64,000 bases of DNA. Origin: Kyrpidia tusciae DSM 2912 (GTDB taxonomy: Bacteria; Bacillota; Bacilli; Kyrpidiales; Kyrpidiaceae). Every line of letters begins with the position of its first letter. Position 1 is the first letter of the stretch. The notes beneath the pieces were generated by a model. It searched no databases. It was not told where the DNA came from and saw only the letters and a program-made list of their open reading frames with translations. The position numbers were made by a program, and so were the translations under genes. The DNA lies in contig NC_014098.1 of assembly GCF_000092905.1 (NCBI RefSeq), forward strand, positions 248,001 to 312,000, written 5' to 3'. This document shows positions 26,050 through 60,167 of this stretch, one piece after another.

Positions 26050-26180
26050 GGGCCGTTCTCCTCCGTCGCGATGCATATATCCACATGATTCACATGGTGT
26101 CATTGTATCACGCGCCCGCTTTCAAGACATGATCGCCCAAGGGGTAACGGCTGCCAAACATCTTGTGAAGAAGATGTGAC

Positions 26181-26215
26181 AAAAAACCTCCCGGGGGCCG
26201 GTGATGCCCGGGAGG
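26181..26215 (-). terminator. Intrinsic terminator of trpB
   Basis: On the minus strand CCTCCCGGG (26207-26215) pairs with CCCGGGAGG (26187-26195) across an 11-base loop and is followed by TTTTTT (26181-26186). A strong terminator shortly after the trpB reading frame. Confidence 0.85.
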
Positions 26216-26251
26216 TCTTGTCGAGGGCCGGAACAGGTTGTTTGGGTTGCT

Positions 26252-27467
26252 TCAGGCTTTTGCCGCTTGTTCGGGTGTGCGGCCCAACATTTCGGCGACC
26301 TGGGCCACGTCTTTGTCCCCCCGGCCGCTGAGGTTGACAATAATGATCTCGTCCTTTGGCCGCTGGGCTGCCAATTTGGTGGCATAGGCCACGGCGTGGC
26401 TCGATTCCAGGGCAGGAATAATCCCTTCGGTTTTGGATAAATTCAGGAAAGCATCCAGGGCCTCCTGATCGTTCACAGCGACGTACTGAGCACGGCCAAT
26501 GGCCTTGTAGTAGCTGTGCTCCGGTCCAACGCCGGGATAATCCAATCCCGCGCTGATCGACCAGCATTTTTCCGGGTCGGGCATGACATAGGAGCGAAAA
26601 CCATGCAGCACGTCCACTTCCCCGACATTGAGGGGGGGCGGCGTGATACCCCGTATCCAAGCCCTTACCGGCCGGTTCGACCCCGATGATTTTCACGGAA
26701 AGGTCCTCCACAAAGGGATAAAAGAGACCGATGGCATTAGACCCGCCCCCAACCGCCGCCACCACATAATCCGGGAGCCGGCCTTCTTTCTCCAGGATCT
26801 GGGCTCTGGCTTCCCGGCCGATGACCGACTGAAAATGGCGGACCATCAAGGGGTAGGGATGGGGCCCCACCGCCGACCCAAGCAGGTAAAAGCTGTCGGG
26901 GTGCCCGGCGAAATACATGAGTGCCTCGTCCACCGCTTCTTTCAACGTGCGGTTCCCGGACGTGGCGGGGATGACCTTGGCCCCGAGCAGCTCCATGCGG
27001 AAGACGTTGAGCGCCTGGCGCTTCATATCCAGTTCGCCCATAAAAATCAAACATTCCAATCCCATGAGCGCCGCGGCGGTGGCGGTGGCCACTCCGTGTT
27101 GCCCGGCCCCGGTTTCGGCGATGATCTGCTTCTTCCCGAGGCGTTTCGCCAGCAGGATTTGGCCCAAGGTGTTGTTGATCTTGTGGGCTCCGGTGTGGTT
27201 CAGGTCTTCCCGCTTGAGGTAGATCTTGGCTCCGCCCACCTGGTCCGACAGTCGCTTGGCGAAATACAGGGGATTGGGCCGGCCCGCATAGTCCTTGTAA
27301 TAGGCCTGGAGCTCGGTGTTGAATTCCGGGTCGTCTTTGTAACGGGCAAAGGCGTTGGCCACCTCGTCCAGCGCCTTTTGAAGCGCCGGCGGCACAAAAC
27401 TCCCTCCGAAAGTCTGATCCCCTTCACCGAATATGCCAGTTTTCTCGTCCACTTTAAGAATGCTCAA
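26252..27467 (-). pseudogene. trpB: Tryptophan synthase beta subunit, frameshifted
   Basis: The first frame (27467 to about 26632) encodes a normal TrpB N-terminus with the PLP lysine in [16 protein letters not shown] and VGGGSNAIG, reaching [16 protein letters not shown]. There it passes through a run of seven G (C on the coding strand) at 26632-26638 and leaves frame. The correct C-terminus ([18 protein letters not shown] to [15 protein letters not shown], ending at 26252) continues in the next frame. Removing one base from the tract restores a 404-residue protein of full length. It is either a homopolymer sequencing error, a phase-variable tract or a real mutation. No trpA or other trp gene adjoins it. 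Confidence 0.85.
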
Positions 27468-51685: not shown

Positions 51686-51701
51686 AGCAATCTTCGTGCC
51701 A
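51686..51701 (-). promoter_or_regulatory. Consensus sigma-54 (-24/-12) promoter for the CoA ligase
   Basis: On the minus strand TGGCACG-AAGA-TTGCT matches TGGCACG-N4-TTGCW at all fixed positions. The distance to the ligase ATG (51660) leaves a very short leader of roughly 15 bases. Confidence 0.85.
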
Positions 51702-53300: not shown

Positions 53301-53315
53301 TGGCATGATCTTTGC
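53301..53315 (+). promoter_or_regulatory. Sigma-54 (-24/-12) promoter for the MHS-type transporter
   Basis: TGGCATG-ATCT-TTGC matches the sigma-54 consensus with one deviation (T for C at the sixth position), with correct spacing between GG and GC. It is 99 bases before the transporter ATG. Confidence 0.8.
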
Positions 53316-53413
53316 GTTTATCAGCTTCATTGGAGACAATTGCGGACCGGGGGAAAATTTCCGCTGCACTCTGTAGACTTCCAAATCACATTATCGGGGG
53401 GGATGAACGCCTC

Positions 53414-54867: not shown

Positions 54868-56277
54868 CTACAAATCCACCTGGTGGTGGGGGCGTGGCTC
54901 TTTTCTGTATTTCCCTGGAAATACGTCACAATCCACGAGTTGCCGAAAGGTGTCGTGATGGCGAATCAGATGGACCTGACCGGAGGTGCGAATCATCGCG
55001 GCGCCGGCCCGGGGAAAGCTGTTGGCTTCGGACATATATTCAAGCACGTAGGCGCCGGTGTCCAAAAAGGCCAAACGGTCTCCGGGGCGCGTGTTCCCCG
55101 GAAGGAGATAGTACTCGCTGCCCTGGGCGCCGTCGCGAAAATAATCCCGGTGGTCGTACAAGGGGCCGCCGATTTTGAAGGGGACATCGTGAGTTTGTTC
55201 TGCCCGGGTGACGGACAAAGCGGCCCTGTTGCTCGGTTCCCCGGGCCACTGAGGAAGGATGTTGAGTCCGGCATCGACGATTAACCAGCGCACGATATCG
55301 GTGATATTTCCTTCTTCGTCCCGAATCGATTTGCTTTTTACCTGGCGGACGGTGGTCAGCAATAGGCCGGCGTTCGCAATGAGCCGCTCGCCGGGAGACA
55401 GAACGAAACGCAGCGGCCGGTCGTACTGGGTCAAGAGCTCCGCCAAGGTCCGCGCGGCCAGCAGATCCTGATCCAATTCTGCGGCGGCTTCATCCGAGGA
55501 CGGAAGATCTAACTCCTGCACCTGAAGTGGCAGTTCTCCCCCCAGGAAGAGAACATCCCCATCCACCCCGAGCCGACTTCGAATCTGTTCTAACAGTTCT
55601 AGGGCGATCTCGCCGACTCGACGTAACGTTTCGGGTTTCCACCGGTAGGTGCCGACCTGCACATGAAGACCCCGGATACGTATGCCGGGATAATTAAGGG
55701 TTTGCTCGGCGAAAGAAAGCAAGTCATGACGATCGATCCCGGACTTTAGATAATAGGGAGTGGGTGGCCGATGGTTGGGGAAAGACAGCACGGGGTCGAC
55801 TTCCAACAGAATGTCGGCCGGGCGCGCCATGCGGGTACCCAGCGTGGACAACGTCTCGATTTCCGACAGGGAGTCCGTACTGATCGCCCGTACCCCTCGT
55901 TCCAAGGCATGGGAGAGAAGTTCCGGAGGTCTATCTGCTCCGGCGAGCAAGATGCGTTCTCCACTGAAACCTGCGGTGAGAGCCTTTTTGAGCTCTCCCA
56001 TAGAGCCGACCTCGACCCCGATACCGGTCCGACCGATGGCTTGAAGAATGGCCAGATTCGAAGAGGCCCGCAGCGGAAAGAACAGGTCGGCGGGTACGTG
56101 TTCGTAGTGAAAGGCGTCGTGGAGTTGACGGACATTTCGCCACAGATGGGATTCGGAATACACATACAGTGGCGTGCCGAAGCGATCCGCCAGTGCCTCT
56201 AGATCGACATCATCCATAGTTAGCCGGCCATTGCGAATGAGCATGTTCCGTCTTGTCAGTTTATCGAACAGGACCAT
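54868..56277 (-). CDS. PLP-decarboxylase-fold protein lacking the catalytic lysine
   Basis: A 469-residue protein with the layout of group IV decarboxylases (diaminopimelate/ornithine/arginine): an N-terminal alanine-racemase-like barrel (about 30-300) and a C-terminal beta domain. Where LysA carries the PLP lysine (Y-A-V-K-A-N-x-N-L-A), this protein has FPLRASSNLA, with Arg70 in place of the lysine. The His of HVQVGTY is kept; the usual glycine triplet is GGE. The active-site cysteine motif C-E-S-x-D reads NTRPGD. It is thus probably not a PLP decarboxylase but may keep a binding or carrier role. The ATG at 56277 follows GGGGATCGCC. Confidence 0.72.
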   Translation of the reverse strand: MVLFDKLTRRNMLIRNGRLTMDDVDLEALADRFGTPLYVYSESHLWRNVRQLHDAFHYEHVPADLFFPLRASSNLAILQAIGRTGIGVEVGSMGELKKALTAGFSGERILLAGADRPPELLSHALERGVRAISTDSLSEIETLSTLGTRMARPADILLEVDPVLSFPNHRPPTPYYLKSGIDRHDLLSFAEQTLNYPGIRIRGLHVQVGTYRWKPETLRRVGEIALELLEQIRSRLGVDGDVLFLGGELPLQVQELDLPSSDEAAAELDQDLLAARTLAELLTQYDRPLRFVLSPGERLIANAGLLLTTVRQVKSKSIRDEEGNITDIVRWLIVDAGLNILPQWPGEPSNRAALSVTRAEQTHDVPFKIGGPLYDHRDYFRDGAQGSEYYLLPGNTRPGDRLAFLDTGAYVLEYMSEANSFPRAGAAMIRTSGQVHLIRHHDTFRQLVDCDVFPGKYRKEPRPHHQVDL

Positions 56278-56474
56278 GGCGATCCCCATCCCCCTCGGCA
56301 CCTCTGTTGCGCTCCCCTTTGAATTGAAGCGATTTGTACCCTATAATTCACCATATCCCTCTGCTCCTTGCTCCCCCAAGAGACAAATGGAGGAAAAATG
56401 ACTGGTTCAGGTGGTCGATCTCATGTGATGCGTATGCACAGTTGGGAATAGTTGATTTGAACTATTACCTTGGA

Positions 56475-56503
56475 TTGACATGATGCCCTGGGGGGTATAT
56501 ACT
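56475..56503 (+). promoter_or_regulatory. Sigma-A promoter with CstR-type operator
   Basis: TTGACA (56475-56480), 17-base spacer, TATACT (56498-56503): an almost perfect sigma-A promoter. Within the spacer, the reverse strand of 56483-56498 reads ATACCCCCCAGGGCAT. This resembles the ATACCCC-GGGTAT operators of CstR/CsoR-family repressors, and a CstR-like gene lies downstream at 57333. It drives the rhodanese cluster. Confidence 0.7.
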
Positions 56504-56544
56504 GCATCCATAAATATACTCTCTCCGGTATCGGAGGTGCGAGA

Positions 56545-56814
56545 TTGCCCCCGGTTTAGATCGCAGACGTGCGGGAGGCGCACGAGCTTCGATCAGGTCA
56601 CGTACCGGGAGCTGTGAATGTGCCGCTGAGCCGATTGTCTCGCGAATTGCACCGCATCCCAAAGGATCGGGAGGTGGCCTTGATCTGTCGAAGCGGCCAT
56701 CGAAGTGTTCAGGCGGCACGAATCCTGAAAAAGGCCGGGTATGCCCGGCTCTGGAACGTTCGGGGCGGGATGATCGCCTGGAATCGACGGCTCCATTCAA
56801 AGCGGAGCCGGTGA
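56545..56814 (+). pseudogene. Single-domain rhodanese with nonsense codon 5
   Basis: A TTG start at 56545 has an ideal GGAGGTGCGAGA ribosome site, and codon 5 (56557-56559) is TAG. Beyond it the frame encodes a normal rhodanese: IADVREAHELRSGHVPGAVNVPL, then the active loop CRSGHRS with its cysteine, and GGMIAWNR. A single C-to-T change (CAG to TAG) would explain the stop. Reinitiation at GTG 56569 would give 81 residues, but there is no ribosome site before it. It belongs to the CstR cluster and its product would transfer persulfide sulfur. Confidence 0.72.
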
Positions 56815-56873
56815 GTGCGGTGAAAAACATGAAAAGATAGGGCCGCGCCGCGGCTCGTGAAGGAGGATTTCGG

Positions 56874-57200
56874 ATGCGCGAGTGGAGTGGCGAGGACCTA
56901 TGGCGCCGGATGCAGGAGGGGACTGCCCCCCGGATTATCGACGTGCGGGAACCGGTAGAGTATTATGAACACGGGCATATCCCTGGAGCGGAATTAATCC
57001 CGATGGGCGAGATTTCTGCAGCTCTCGGCCGAATTTCAAAGCACGAGGAGATTGTTTTTGTCTGCCGGTCGGGCAGCCGAAGTGGCTATGTGTGCCAATT
57101 CCTTCAGCGGTTGGGGTACGAGCGTGTCATCAACCTGGCCGGTGGCATGATCTACTGGCCTGGAGCGGTGAATTACGGACCTGAATCCGAAGGTGCGTGA
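56874..57200 (+). CDS. Single-domain rhodanese
   Basis: A 108-residue sulfurtransferase. RIIDVREPVEYYEHGHIPGAELIPMGEI is the rhodanese core, the active-site loop is CRSGSRS with the persulfide cysteine near residue 63, and GGMIYWPG closes the domain. The ATG at 56874 follows AAGGAGGATTTCGG. The preceding gene encodes a related but disrupted rhodanese. Placed between that gene and cstR, it should move sulfane sulfur in a sulfide/persulfide detoxification pathway. Confidence 0.9.
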   Translation: MREWSGEDLWRRMQEGTAPRIIDVREPVEYYEHGHIPGAELIPMGEISAALGRISKHEEIVFVCRSGSRSGYVCQFLQRLGYERVINLAGGMIYWPGAVNYGPESEGA

Positions 57201-57297
57201 GCAGGTGCCTTCCGGAGCGGACAGTGCCGTCAGCCGCTCGGCAGGATGTTAGAGCCTGGACCCCGGAAAGCGTCCCAGGCGTATCGTAAACCACTTC

Positions 57298-57304
57298 GGG
57301 GTAT
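57298..57304 (+). promoter_or_regulatory. Candidate CstR half-operator and -10 before cstR
   Basis: GGGGTAT (reverse ATACCCC) at 57298-57304 abuts a TATAGT box at 57307-57312. This suggests a second, weaker autoregulated start site just ahead of cstR. Confidence 0.4.
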
Positions 57305-57332
57305 GGTATAGTCAACAGTGAGGTGTTGGACC

Positions 57333-57593
57333 ATGGAATACACAGATGCGATGAAGAATCGCCTGAAGCGCATCGAGGGTCAGGTTCGGGGCATTATGGG
57401 CATGATGGAAAAGGAGCAGTCCTGTCGAGATGTTGTCACGCAACTGTCCGCAGTTCGGGCGGCGATCGACCGGCTCATTGTATATGTGATCGGATCGAAC
57501 ATGGAAATGTGCATCCGGGACGAAGTTGAGAACGGCCGCCCTGCGGACCAAGTGATTCAAGAAGCCATTGAACTTTTGATGAAAAGTCGCTGA
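57333..57593 (+). CDS. cstR: CstR-type persulfide-responsive repressor (CsoR/FrmR family)
   Basis: An 86-residue all-helical repressor. Cys31 (QSCRDVV) and Cys60 (NMEMC) sit at the two positions used by CstR for polysulfide sensing. The residue that is His in copper-sensing CsoR is Asn56 here, which points to a sulfur rather than copper sensor. CstR forms di- to tetrasulfide bridges with persulfides and leaves its operators. The ATG at 57333 follows GTGAGGTG; a GTG at 57318 is less likely. It lies within the rhodanese/DUF302 cluster whose promoter carries a matching operator. Confidence 0.85.
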   Translation: MEYTDAMKNRLKRIEGQVRGIMGMMEKEQSCRDVVTQLSAVRAAIDRLIVYVIGSNMEMCIRDEVENGRPADQVIQEAIELLMKSR

Positions 57594-57645
57594 TCGACAC
57601 CGCTTCGCGGCAACGGGGAAGGATAAGGACGGAAGGAGGAGGAAT

Positions 57646-58035
57646 ATGTTTCATTATACGGTGACCACCGACAAATCCCTGGAAGAGTCTGTTCGCGCCC
57701 TGGAGGAATCCCTCAAAGAGCGCCGCTTTGGTGTGTTGTGGCAGATGGACATCCCGGAGAAACTCCGGGAAAAGGGGGTATCTTTTGATACCCCGTACCG
57801 AGTCCTGGAGGTATGCAATCCCCAGGAGGCGGCTAGGGTACTGGGGAGGGAACTGCTGGTGGGGTACTTCTTGCCTTGCAAGATTGTCGTCTACCGGGAC
57901 GGGGAAAAGACCAAGATCGGTCTGCCCCGGCCGACCATGCTGCTCGGCCACGCCTCGGAGGACGCCGAGTTGCGGGAGATCGCCCAGCGGGTGGAGGAGC
58001 AACTCACTGCAGCCGTTGATGCGGCGGCCCGCTGA
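57646..58035 (+). CDS. DUF302 family protein
   Basis: A 129-residue soluble protein matching the DUF302 fold: it opens YTVTTDKSLEESVRALEESLKERRFGVLW and contains YRVLEVCNPQEAARVL and FLPCKIVVYRDG, both typical. One cysteine is in EVCNP and another in LPCKI. DUF302 proteins often sit beside sulfur and metal stress genes, but their function is unsettled. A ribosome site AAGGAGGAGGAAT precedes the ATG. It is cotranscribed with cstR (52 bases) and the methyltransferase (25 bases). Confidence 0.85.
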   Translation: MFHYTVTTDKSLEESVRALEESLKERRFGVLWQMDIPEKLREKGVSFDTPYRVLEVCNPQEAARVLGRELLVGYFLPCKIVVYRDGEKTKIGLPRPTMLLGHASEDAELREIAQRVEEQLTAAVDAAAR

Positions 58036-58060
58036 AAGTCGACATGTAAGGGGTGAGGGC

Positions 58061-58645
58061 GTGGGACATCGATTTCATCCCGACCACATGGACCGATTGC
58101 TTGGGGAGGAACGGAGGGGCGTCCTGCCTCCGGATCGAATTCTCGACCTCTTAGCTCCGAATCCCGCAGATACAGTGGCGGATATCGGGGCCGGGCCGGG
58201 GTATTTTACCCTTCCCCTCGCCGAGCGGACCCAGGGGACGGTGTATGCCATAGACGTGGAACCGCGGATGTTGGAAGTGTTGCAGAGCCGTTGGCCAGGC
58301 GGGATGCCGGCGAGGGTGCGGCCGCTCGTCGGCGCGGCTGACGATTTGCCCCTGCCCGACGGATCGGTGGACCGGCTCCTCTACTCATTGGTGCTTCACG
58401 AAGTAGATGCTCTGGATGAGGCCCTTCAAGAAGCGCGACGCGTGCTCAGGCTCAATGGGAGAATGGTGGTGATCGAATGGCACCCGGAGGCGACAGACCA
58501 GAAAGGGCCCCCCAAACAGGAACGATTAAATCCCGATCGCTTGGCTCAGCAAATGATGCGGTGCGGACTGAAGGTGGAGAGTCTTCTGGACGTCAGTGCG
58601 TTTCATTACGCTCTTGTGGCCGCACCTCAAACGCATGCCCGCTGA
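58061..58645 (+). CDS. Class I SAM-dependent methyltransferase
   Basis: A 194-residue protein with SAM-binding motif I VADIGAGPGYFTLPLAERT (about 39-57), acidic motif YAIDVEPRMLE and a post-motif DDLPLPDGSVDRLLYSLVLHEV; it resembles UbiE/arsenite or small-molecule thiol methyltransferases. The GTG at 58061 follows AAGGGGTGAGGGC and replaces a longer frame. Its place after DUF302 suggests it may methylate sulfide, persulfide or a metal(loid), but no conserved triad of cysteines for arsenite is seen. Confidence 0.82.
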   Translation: MGHRFHPDHMDRLLGEERRGVLPPDRILDLLAPNPADTVADIGAGPGYFTLPLAERTQGTVYAIDVEPRMLEVLQSRWPGGMPARVRPLVGAADDLPLPDGSVDRLLYSLVLHEVDALDEALQEARRVLRLNGRMVVIEWHPEATDQKGPPKQERLNPDRLAQQMMRCGLKVESLLDVSAFHYALVAAPQTHAR

Positions 58646-58662
58646 CCGGGTTCGCCTCATGG

Positions 58663-58767
58663 TTGGCTCGGCGGGTGCGTTGCGGCTGGTGCCCCGGGCA
58701 ACTCGTGTTTTTCGCCGTGGCGGCAGCGGTTCTGGTGATGACCGTCGTCGCCCGATTGTTGCATTAA
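58663..58767 (+). CDS. Candidate small single-span membrane protein
   Basis: A 34-codon frame (TTG start, or GTG 58675) encoding RCGWCPGQ followed by a hydrophobic stretch that ends in VVARLLH. It would span the membrane once with a CxxC near the inner face. There is no convincing ribosome site. It sits between the methyltransferase and resA, where small accessory membrane proteins of cytochrome biogenesis can occur. Speculative. Confidence 0.28.
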   Translation: MARRVRCGWCPGQLVFFAVAAAVLVMTVVARLLH

Positions 58768-58789
58768 CCGAGACGAAGGAGGGAGCGGG

Positions 58790-59353
58790 GTGACCGGCAA
58801 GCGCAAGAGCGGCATGGGGTTCACGATCTTTGTCGTGGTCGTGCTCCTCATTGCCGTGGCCGTCGTCATCAATGTCACGAAATCGAACGGATCCGAAGCC
58901 GGAGCGGGGGGTGGTGCGGCCCTGCCGATTAAAGGATACCAGGCTCCGGATTTTACTTTGAAAACGTTTGACGGACAGGCTGTGACATTGTCCCAGATGA
59001 AAGGCAAGCCGGTATTCTTGAATTTCTGGGCTTCCTGGTGTCCCCCGTGCCAGGCGGAAACGCCAGACCTCGTGGAAATGCATAAGAAATACGGCGATAA
59101 GATCGCCTTTTATGGCATCAACCTGACGCAACAAGATGACCAGCAAAAAGCCTTGGATTTCATCAAAAACTACAAGATTGATTATCCTGTCCTCTCGGAT
59201 GCAGAGGGCAAGGTGTCTGATCTGTACCGGGTACAGGCCATCCCCACCAGCGTGTTTATCGCTCCGGACGGCAAGATCGTCGAGTTGGTTCAGGGACTGA
59301 TGACGAAACAGGATATGGACCGGTTATTCGGGGAATTGGCATCGGCAAAGTAG
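58790..59353 (+). CDS. resA: ResA-type membrane-anchored thiol-disulfide oxidoreductase
   Basis: A 187-residue protein with an N-terminal transmembrane anchor (about 10-28) and a thioredoxin fold outside the membrane, with active site WCPPC (about 83-87) and cis-proline in IPTSVFI. It reduces the haem-binding cysteines of apocytochrome c in Gram-positive cytochrome maturation. The GTG start at 58790 follows AAGGAGGGAGCGGG. The next gene is CcdA, its electron donor. The match to the c-type cytochromes elsewhere in the window is natural. Confidence 0.88.
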   Translation: MTGKRKSGMGFTIFVVVVLLIAVAVVINVTKSNGSEAGAGGGAALPIKGYQAPDFTLKTFDGQAVTLSQMKGKPVFLNFWASWCPPCQAETPDLVEMHKKYGDKIAFYGINLTQQDDQQKALDFIKNYKIDYPVLSDAEGKVSDLYRVQAIPTSVFIAPDGKIVELVQGLMTKQDMDRLFGELASAK

Positions 59354-59459
59354 AAGATTGTCCGGGGGCTGAACACGGGACAGGCGTGTGCCGGCTGACG
59401 CGAGGCGCGAAGGCCGATGGCGGGCTCCGGCGGCCTCCGGGGTAGGGAAGGTGATAATC

Positions 59460-60167
59460 GTGTCGGAACCGGTGACCCTGTGGCTGGCGTTTGGCGCAGG
59501 ATTGCTTTCCTTTGTCTCTCCCTGTGTATTGCCCTTGTACCCTTCGTATATTTCTTACATCTCCGGCGTGTCCTGGGGGGAAGGTGCCGATCGCGCCGAG
59601 GCGCGAAGGCGGGCCTTGAAGTATGCGGTTTTTTTTGTGCTCGGGTTTTCCACCGTTTTCCTAGCTCTAGGGTGGTCTGCCAGCCTCATCGGCCAATTGT
59701 TTGTGGAGTATAAAATGTGGCTGCGGATCATCGGCGGGATTGTGGTCATCTTCATGGGCATGGTGATTGCCGGGTGGATTCGATCGGACTGGTTGATGCA
59801 GGAGAAAAAATGGACGGTCAATCGCAAACCGGTGGGGTATTTTGGAGCCTGGTTGATCGGAGTCAGTTTTGCCGCCGGCTGGACGCCGTGCATCGGCCCG
59901 ATCCTGGCCTCGGTGTTGGTCATGGCGGCCAACGAGCCCGGCCGGGCCCTCCTGTTCATGGCTCTTTACGCCTTGGGATTTGCACTGCCCTTTTTGATCC
60001 TGGCTTTTTCCCTCACCTCCTGGAAATGGCTGCAACAAAAGTCAGGCGTGGTCAGCAAGGCCGGCGGGGTCATCATGGTGGTCATGGGATTCTTGTTGCT
60101 GACGGATTCCCTGAGCACGATTACGGTCTGGCTCACGAAGTTGTTCGGCGGATTTACCGGCTTTTAA
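59460..60167 (+). CDS. ccdA: CcdA cytochrome c biogenesis membrane protein
   Basis: A 235-residue protein with six hydrophobic helices and the two CcdA cysteine motifs, SPCVLPLYPSY in helix 1 and AGWTPCIGP in helix 4. It passes electrons from cytoplasmic thioredoxin to ResA. The GTG at 59460 follows AAGGTGATAATC; a GTG at 59451 or a longer frame to 59388 are alternatives. It is transcribed with resA, and the whole series from 56545 to 60167 could be one long unit. Confidence 0.9.
   Translation: MSEPVTLWLAFGAGLLSFVSPCVLPLYPSYISYISGVSWGEGADRAEARRRALKYAVFFVLGFSTVFLALGWSASLIGQLFVEYKMWLRIIGGIVVIFMGMVIAGWIRSDWLMQEKKWTVNRKPVGYFGAWLIGVSFAAGWTPCIGPILASVLVMAANEPGRALLFMALYALGFALPFLILAFSLTSWKWLQQKSGVVSKAGGVIMVVMGFLLLTDSLSTITVWLTKLFGGFTGF

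Follow-up and report, generated by a model that had tools for sequence, protein, structure and literature searches.

The window analyzed here is a 64,000-nucleotide stretch from Kyrpidia tusciae T2 (DSM 2912), which oxidizes hydrogen and is a thermoacidophile of solfataras (PMC3236038). ORF analysis finds an intact frame on its minus strand (54868–56301) that encodes a decarboxylase-like protein. A longer start at GTG 56301 is possible, but ATG 56277 fits better, because the resulting N terminus (MMLLFEEL) pairs in the alignment with MVLFDKL of an orthologue of 57% identity. With this start, the gene covers 54868–56277 and encodes 469 amino acids. Both Orn/DAP/Arg decarboxylase domains score above their Pfam gathering cut-offs (PF02784, 72.9 bits; PF00278, 32.8 bits), which confirms the gene proposed in an earlier note and places its product in the fold-type-III decarboxylase superfamily. 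No Rfam family is found at the locus. The gene is apparently monocistronic. An MFS gene converges on it from one side, and on the other it diverges from a plus-strand cluster (56569–60167), in which Pfam recognizes two rhodaneses, a CsoR/CstR-family repressor, a DUF302 protein, a methyltransferase, a TlpA-like thioredoxin, and CcdA.

Within the superfamily, the closest named relative is the D-ornithine/D-lysine decarboxylase DokD (STM2360 of Salmonella; PDB codes 8d88 and 6n2h; profile NF052544). The two proteins share ∼30–32% identity over their full length, both domains, a motif of the type GPLxDxxDYF, and a similar C-terminal end. In the PDB, 8d88 matches with E 9e-66, whereas entries for ornithine decarboxylase (ODC) reach only ∼4e-4. 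Neither curated cut-off is attained, with 272 bits against 700 for NF052544 and 187.7 bits against 297.9 for the LysA profile TIGR01048. In a tree, the three orthologues that we compared (from K. tusciae, Kyrpidia EA-1, and the genome G003; 57–96% identical) cluster with DokD and not with LysA on a long stem (support 98/96), a grouping to be read with caution because of the long branches. Such a stem is as expected after a loss of catalytic constraint followed by a new constraint, an argument that the long branches weaken. Profile, PDB, and tree comparisons thus make DokD the parent family, and not the LysA or SpeA/SpeC with which the earlier note proposed an alignment. LysA does share the fold type, the two domains, and the structural residues, but its catalytic residues are lost in the Kyrpidia protein, and the K. 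tusciae genome encodes a separate, intact LysA of 27% identity. We found no true DokD in K. tusciae or in the other genomes that carry the decarboxylase-like gene, which is single-copy in them.

We compared the orthologues with 17 active relatives with intact motifs (3 DokD, 13 LysA, and 1 other). The roles of the lysine, Arg154, His197, Arg277, Tyr389, and Cys360 are taken from the ODC literature (PMC3543441). Seven PLP-binding or catalytic residues are replaced identically in all three orthologues (A68P, K70R, R159E, H207Q, G248E, E294S, and C374Y). For the positions that the ODC literature does not cover, roles follow general knowledge of the fold. The Schiff-base lysine, present in 17/17 active relatives, is Arg70 (codon 56068–56070, minus strand, as for all codons here), as the earlier note had observed. 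That note also reported the loss of PLP residues but understated its extent, since four further positions are changed in 3/3 orthologues and invariant in 17/17 relatives. Glu159 (55801–55803) takes the place of Arg154 of ODC, and Gln207 (55657–55659) that of the PLP-contacting histidine of the HxG motif (ODC His197). In the phosphate loop, GGG has become GGE through Glu248 (55534–55536; ODC Gly237), and Ser294 (55396–55398) replaces the glutamate of the EPGR motif that pairs with the pyridine nitrogen (ODC Glu274).

The catalytic cysteine is likewise lost, being Tyr374 (55156–55158) in every orthologue. Its position differs from the one first proposed, in which NTRPGD (residues 395–400; 55078–55095) replaced the C-E-S motif. 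In our alignment, NTRPGD matches KETHVGD of DokD and forms the turn before GAY, so we rejected it as the Cys motif. The equivalent of CESGD/CDGGD is YDHRD, which lies in GPLYDHRDYF (residues 371–380; 55138–55167). Accordingly, the PLP lysine and catalytic cysteine by which a DokD is recognized are Arg70 and Tyr374 in 3/3 orthologues, and the histidine, glutamate, arginine, and third glycine of DokD are replaced as well.

Because the same substitutions recur in all three orthologues, the loss exceeds what chance would give. Among 53 positions that are invariant or nearly so in the active relatives, 33 are kept in every orthologue. The losses are concentrated in the PLP/catalytic set (7/12, against 8/41 elsewhere; Fisher p 0.014), a value that is supportive only, as the 12 positions were picked after the alignment had been viewed. 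The sequence comparison thus strongly supports a loss of PLP chemistry.

A PLP enzyme that binds its cofactor non-covalently or through another lysine is accordingly a very improbable reading of the protein. Such binding could draw on residues of the phosphate site that are kept, namely Gly246 and Gly247 of the phosphate loop, the EPGR glycine Gly296, and the phosphate tyrosine Tyr410. However, the lysine was lost together with the contacts to the ring, the nitrogen, and the phosphate loop. A new barrel lysine that could replace it is not found in the orthologues; the conserved Lys98, Lys178, Lys314, Lys316, and Lys368 also occur in DokD, and the only two family-specific lysines, Lys456 and Lys459, lie in the C-terminal tail. 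The kept glycines and Tyr410 may instead mean that some ligand still occupies the old phosphate site.

Residues of the scaffold and of the dimer interface, by contrast, are preserved. In ODC, Lys169, Asp364, Asp134, and Lys294 form interface salt bridges (PMC3543441). The corresponding residues here, Lys178, Asp378, Asp135, and Lys314, are all kept, and both pairs (Lys178/Asp378 and Asp135/Lys314) count among the 33 conserved positions. Retention of the residues is compatible with absent bridges, as in mouse antizyme inhibitor (PMC3543441). The AlphaFold model of the protein is poor (mean pLDDT 48), and we therefore infer dimerization and the pocket from the alignment alone; the folding and the PLP-free state are likewise deduced. 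The kept interface would also suit a partner that, in the manner of antizyme inhibitor, forms heterodimers with the cell's own LysA and tunes lysine synthesis, and an intact LysA is indeed encoded elsewhere in the genome. We consider this improbable, given the identity to LysA of only 27%, the absence of genetic linkage, and the existence of another Kyrpidia genome (G002) that has LysA and lacks the decarboxylase-like gene.

At the old phosphate and ring site, R159E, G248E, and E294S, joined in Kyrpidia by R297E, would make the pocket more negative by at least two charges. This acidic pocket would either be closed by pairs of Arg70 with glutamates or now hold a cation instead of phosphate. The main rival to a pseudoenzyme is a new, PLP-independent enzyme whose pocket would be relined with Arg70, Glu159, Gln207, Glu248, Ser294, and Tyr374 next to the kept His205. 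In its favor, most of the substituted residues are polar, 3/3 orthologues share them despite 57% overall identity, and the gene is under purifying selection; but we recognize no reaction or cofactor site, and a gene that looks monocistronic offers no operon partner to hint at a substrate. On balance, we regard a new enzyme as unlikely, if less so than the LysA partner.

The earlier description of the gene as decayed-looking but intact holds, as it is conserved and syntenic in three Kyrpidiaceae genomes and evolves under purifying selection. The dN/dS ratio against the Kyrpidia EA-1 orthologue is 0.11 (neighboring genes, 0.02–0.15), and that against the 57% orthologue of G003 is ∼0.19, with dS saturated. 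Among ∼800 Bacillota genomes, sampled in two draws with some overlap, nothing scored above threshold except the three Kyrpidiaceae proteins and a pair of canonical DokD; as far as these genomes were searched, the PLP-less gene is limited to Kyrpidiaceae. A contig search returned one distant relative with Lys and Cys intact, and a plasmid search returned Salmonella DokD and weaker matches such as LysA, which were not checked residue by residue. Viral contigs yielded no relatives.

Kyrpidia G002 (86% complete), which retains LysA, lacks the gene. On one contig of this genome, the rhodanese gene comes almost immediately after the BCKDH genes, which indicates that the decarboxylase-like gene is dispensable there. 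This absence and the near junction would suit a gene that was inactivated recently and is being lost. We give such a history little credence, since the gene has no stops or frameshifts in the three genomes, dN/dS is 0.11, and the key substitutions are identical across genera, so that inactivation predates the genus split. In G002, only ∼600 bp (L056:8824–9429) remain in place of the decarboxylase-like and transporter genes, perhaps including a remnant of the 3′ end of the transporter gene.

With nearly all PLP-holding residues lost and the gene under selection, the protein must work other than by the usual chemistry. Judged by its sequence, it is almost certainly a conserved, PLP-free pseudo-decarboxylase derived from DokD. 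It would keep the two-domain dimer scaffold, neither bind PLP nor decarboxylate, and serve as a sensing or regulatory pseudoenzyme that works through a bound small ligand or partner protein. We lean, by a modest margin over even chances, toward this reading of a DokD-derived dimer that acts through ligand or partner binding.

Bacteria are not known to have an antizyme. PLP-free pseudoenzymes of fold type III are documented in animals, where antizyme inhibitor (AZIN), a pseudoenzyme of ODC, cannot bind PLP and is retained for a non-catalytic role (PMC3543441). The Kyrpidia protein resembles AZIN as a relative of fold-III decarboxylases that has lost PLP-binding residues. However, AZIN mostly retains Lys and Cys (PMC3543441), both of which are missing here, and it descends from ODC, whereas the Kyrpidia protein is bacterial and DokD-derived. 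Among the titles and abstracts that a literature search for such PLP-free fold-III pseudoenzymes returned, none concerned a bacterial example, which is weak evidence of absence. The present protein comes from a cultured type strain. As domain-based naming would make it a decarboxylase, metabolic reconstructions of Kyrpidia would assign to it an activity that it very probably does not have.

The earlier note had also pointed to a CstR sulfur cluster beside the gene on the opposite strand, and the CsoR/CstR-family and rhodanese genes bear this out. The divergent cluster adjoins the gene in all three genomes. Its repressor has Asn at the position of the His of copper-sensing CsoR, which presumably fits the CstR type. 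A palindrome, ATGCCCTGGGGGGTAT / ATACCCCCCAGGGCAT (56483–56498, plus strand), lies between TTGACA (−35) and TATACT (−10) of the cluster promoter and is a candidate CsoR/CstR-type operator; the same element is placed likewise in the other two genomes. The decarboxylase-like gene lies on the far side of ATACCCCCCAGGGCAT from the cluster, and a search for a consensus promoter of this gene found none. Regulation shared with the cluster is possible, but the sulfur link is positional, and the gene is not in the sulfur operon.

The role as regulator, carrier, or enzyme with new chemistry that was first suggested is possible in general terms. A cysteine-based persulfide or sulfur carrier was rejected. 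Each Kyrpidia protein has one cysteine and the G003 protein has two elsewhere; as none is common to all three, a conserved cysteine-based persulfide carrier is ruled out. A PLP-free cation-binding sensor or PLP-independent enzyme that is tied to reactive-sulfur metabolism in Kyrpidiaceae is a rather doubtful proposition.

Within the cluster, the first rhodanese (56540–56814, plus strand) is ∼120 bp shorter than in EA-1; the N-terminal membrane helix is gone, and a TAG precedes the remainder. The G003 version (L034:5746–8760, minus strand) carries genes for a TusA-rhodanese fusion, a DsrE2-like protein, an MBL-rhodanese, and a TauE-like protein, none of which is there in the Kyrpidia version.

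The DokD locus of Salmonella has an APC permease and a racemase as neighbors, which are not at the Kyrpidia locus, and also a divergent sigma-54 regulator. The window's sigma-54 regulator is 33% identical to the latter, with most of the similarity in the AAA+ portion, and no such regulator stands beside the orthologue in G003. Control of the decarboxylase-like gene by the nearby regulator was rejected, as the minus strand just 5′ of the gene has no sigma-54-like site. Such sites, which are about as numerous in the window as chance predicts, precede an acyl-CoA ligase gene (51686–51701, minus strand) and the MHS-type transporter, that is, the MFS gene (53301–53316, plus strand). They flank a PAS sigma-54 activator and perhaps mark an uptake-and-activation unit. 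Elsewhere in the window, the C-terminal part of a tryptophan synthase beta-like frame (26100–27467, minus strand) reads as unrelated, suggesting a frameshift or sequencing error.
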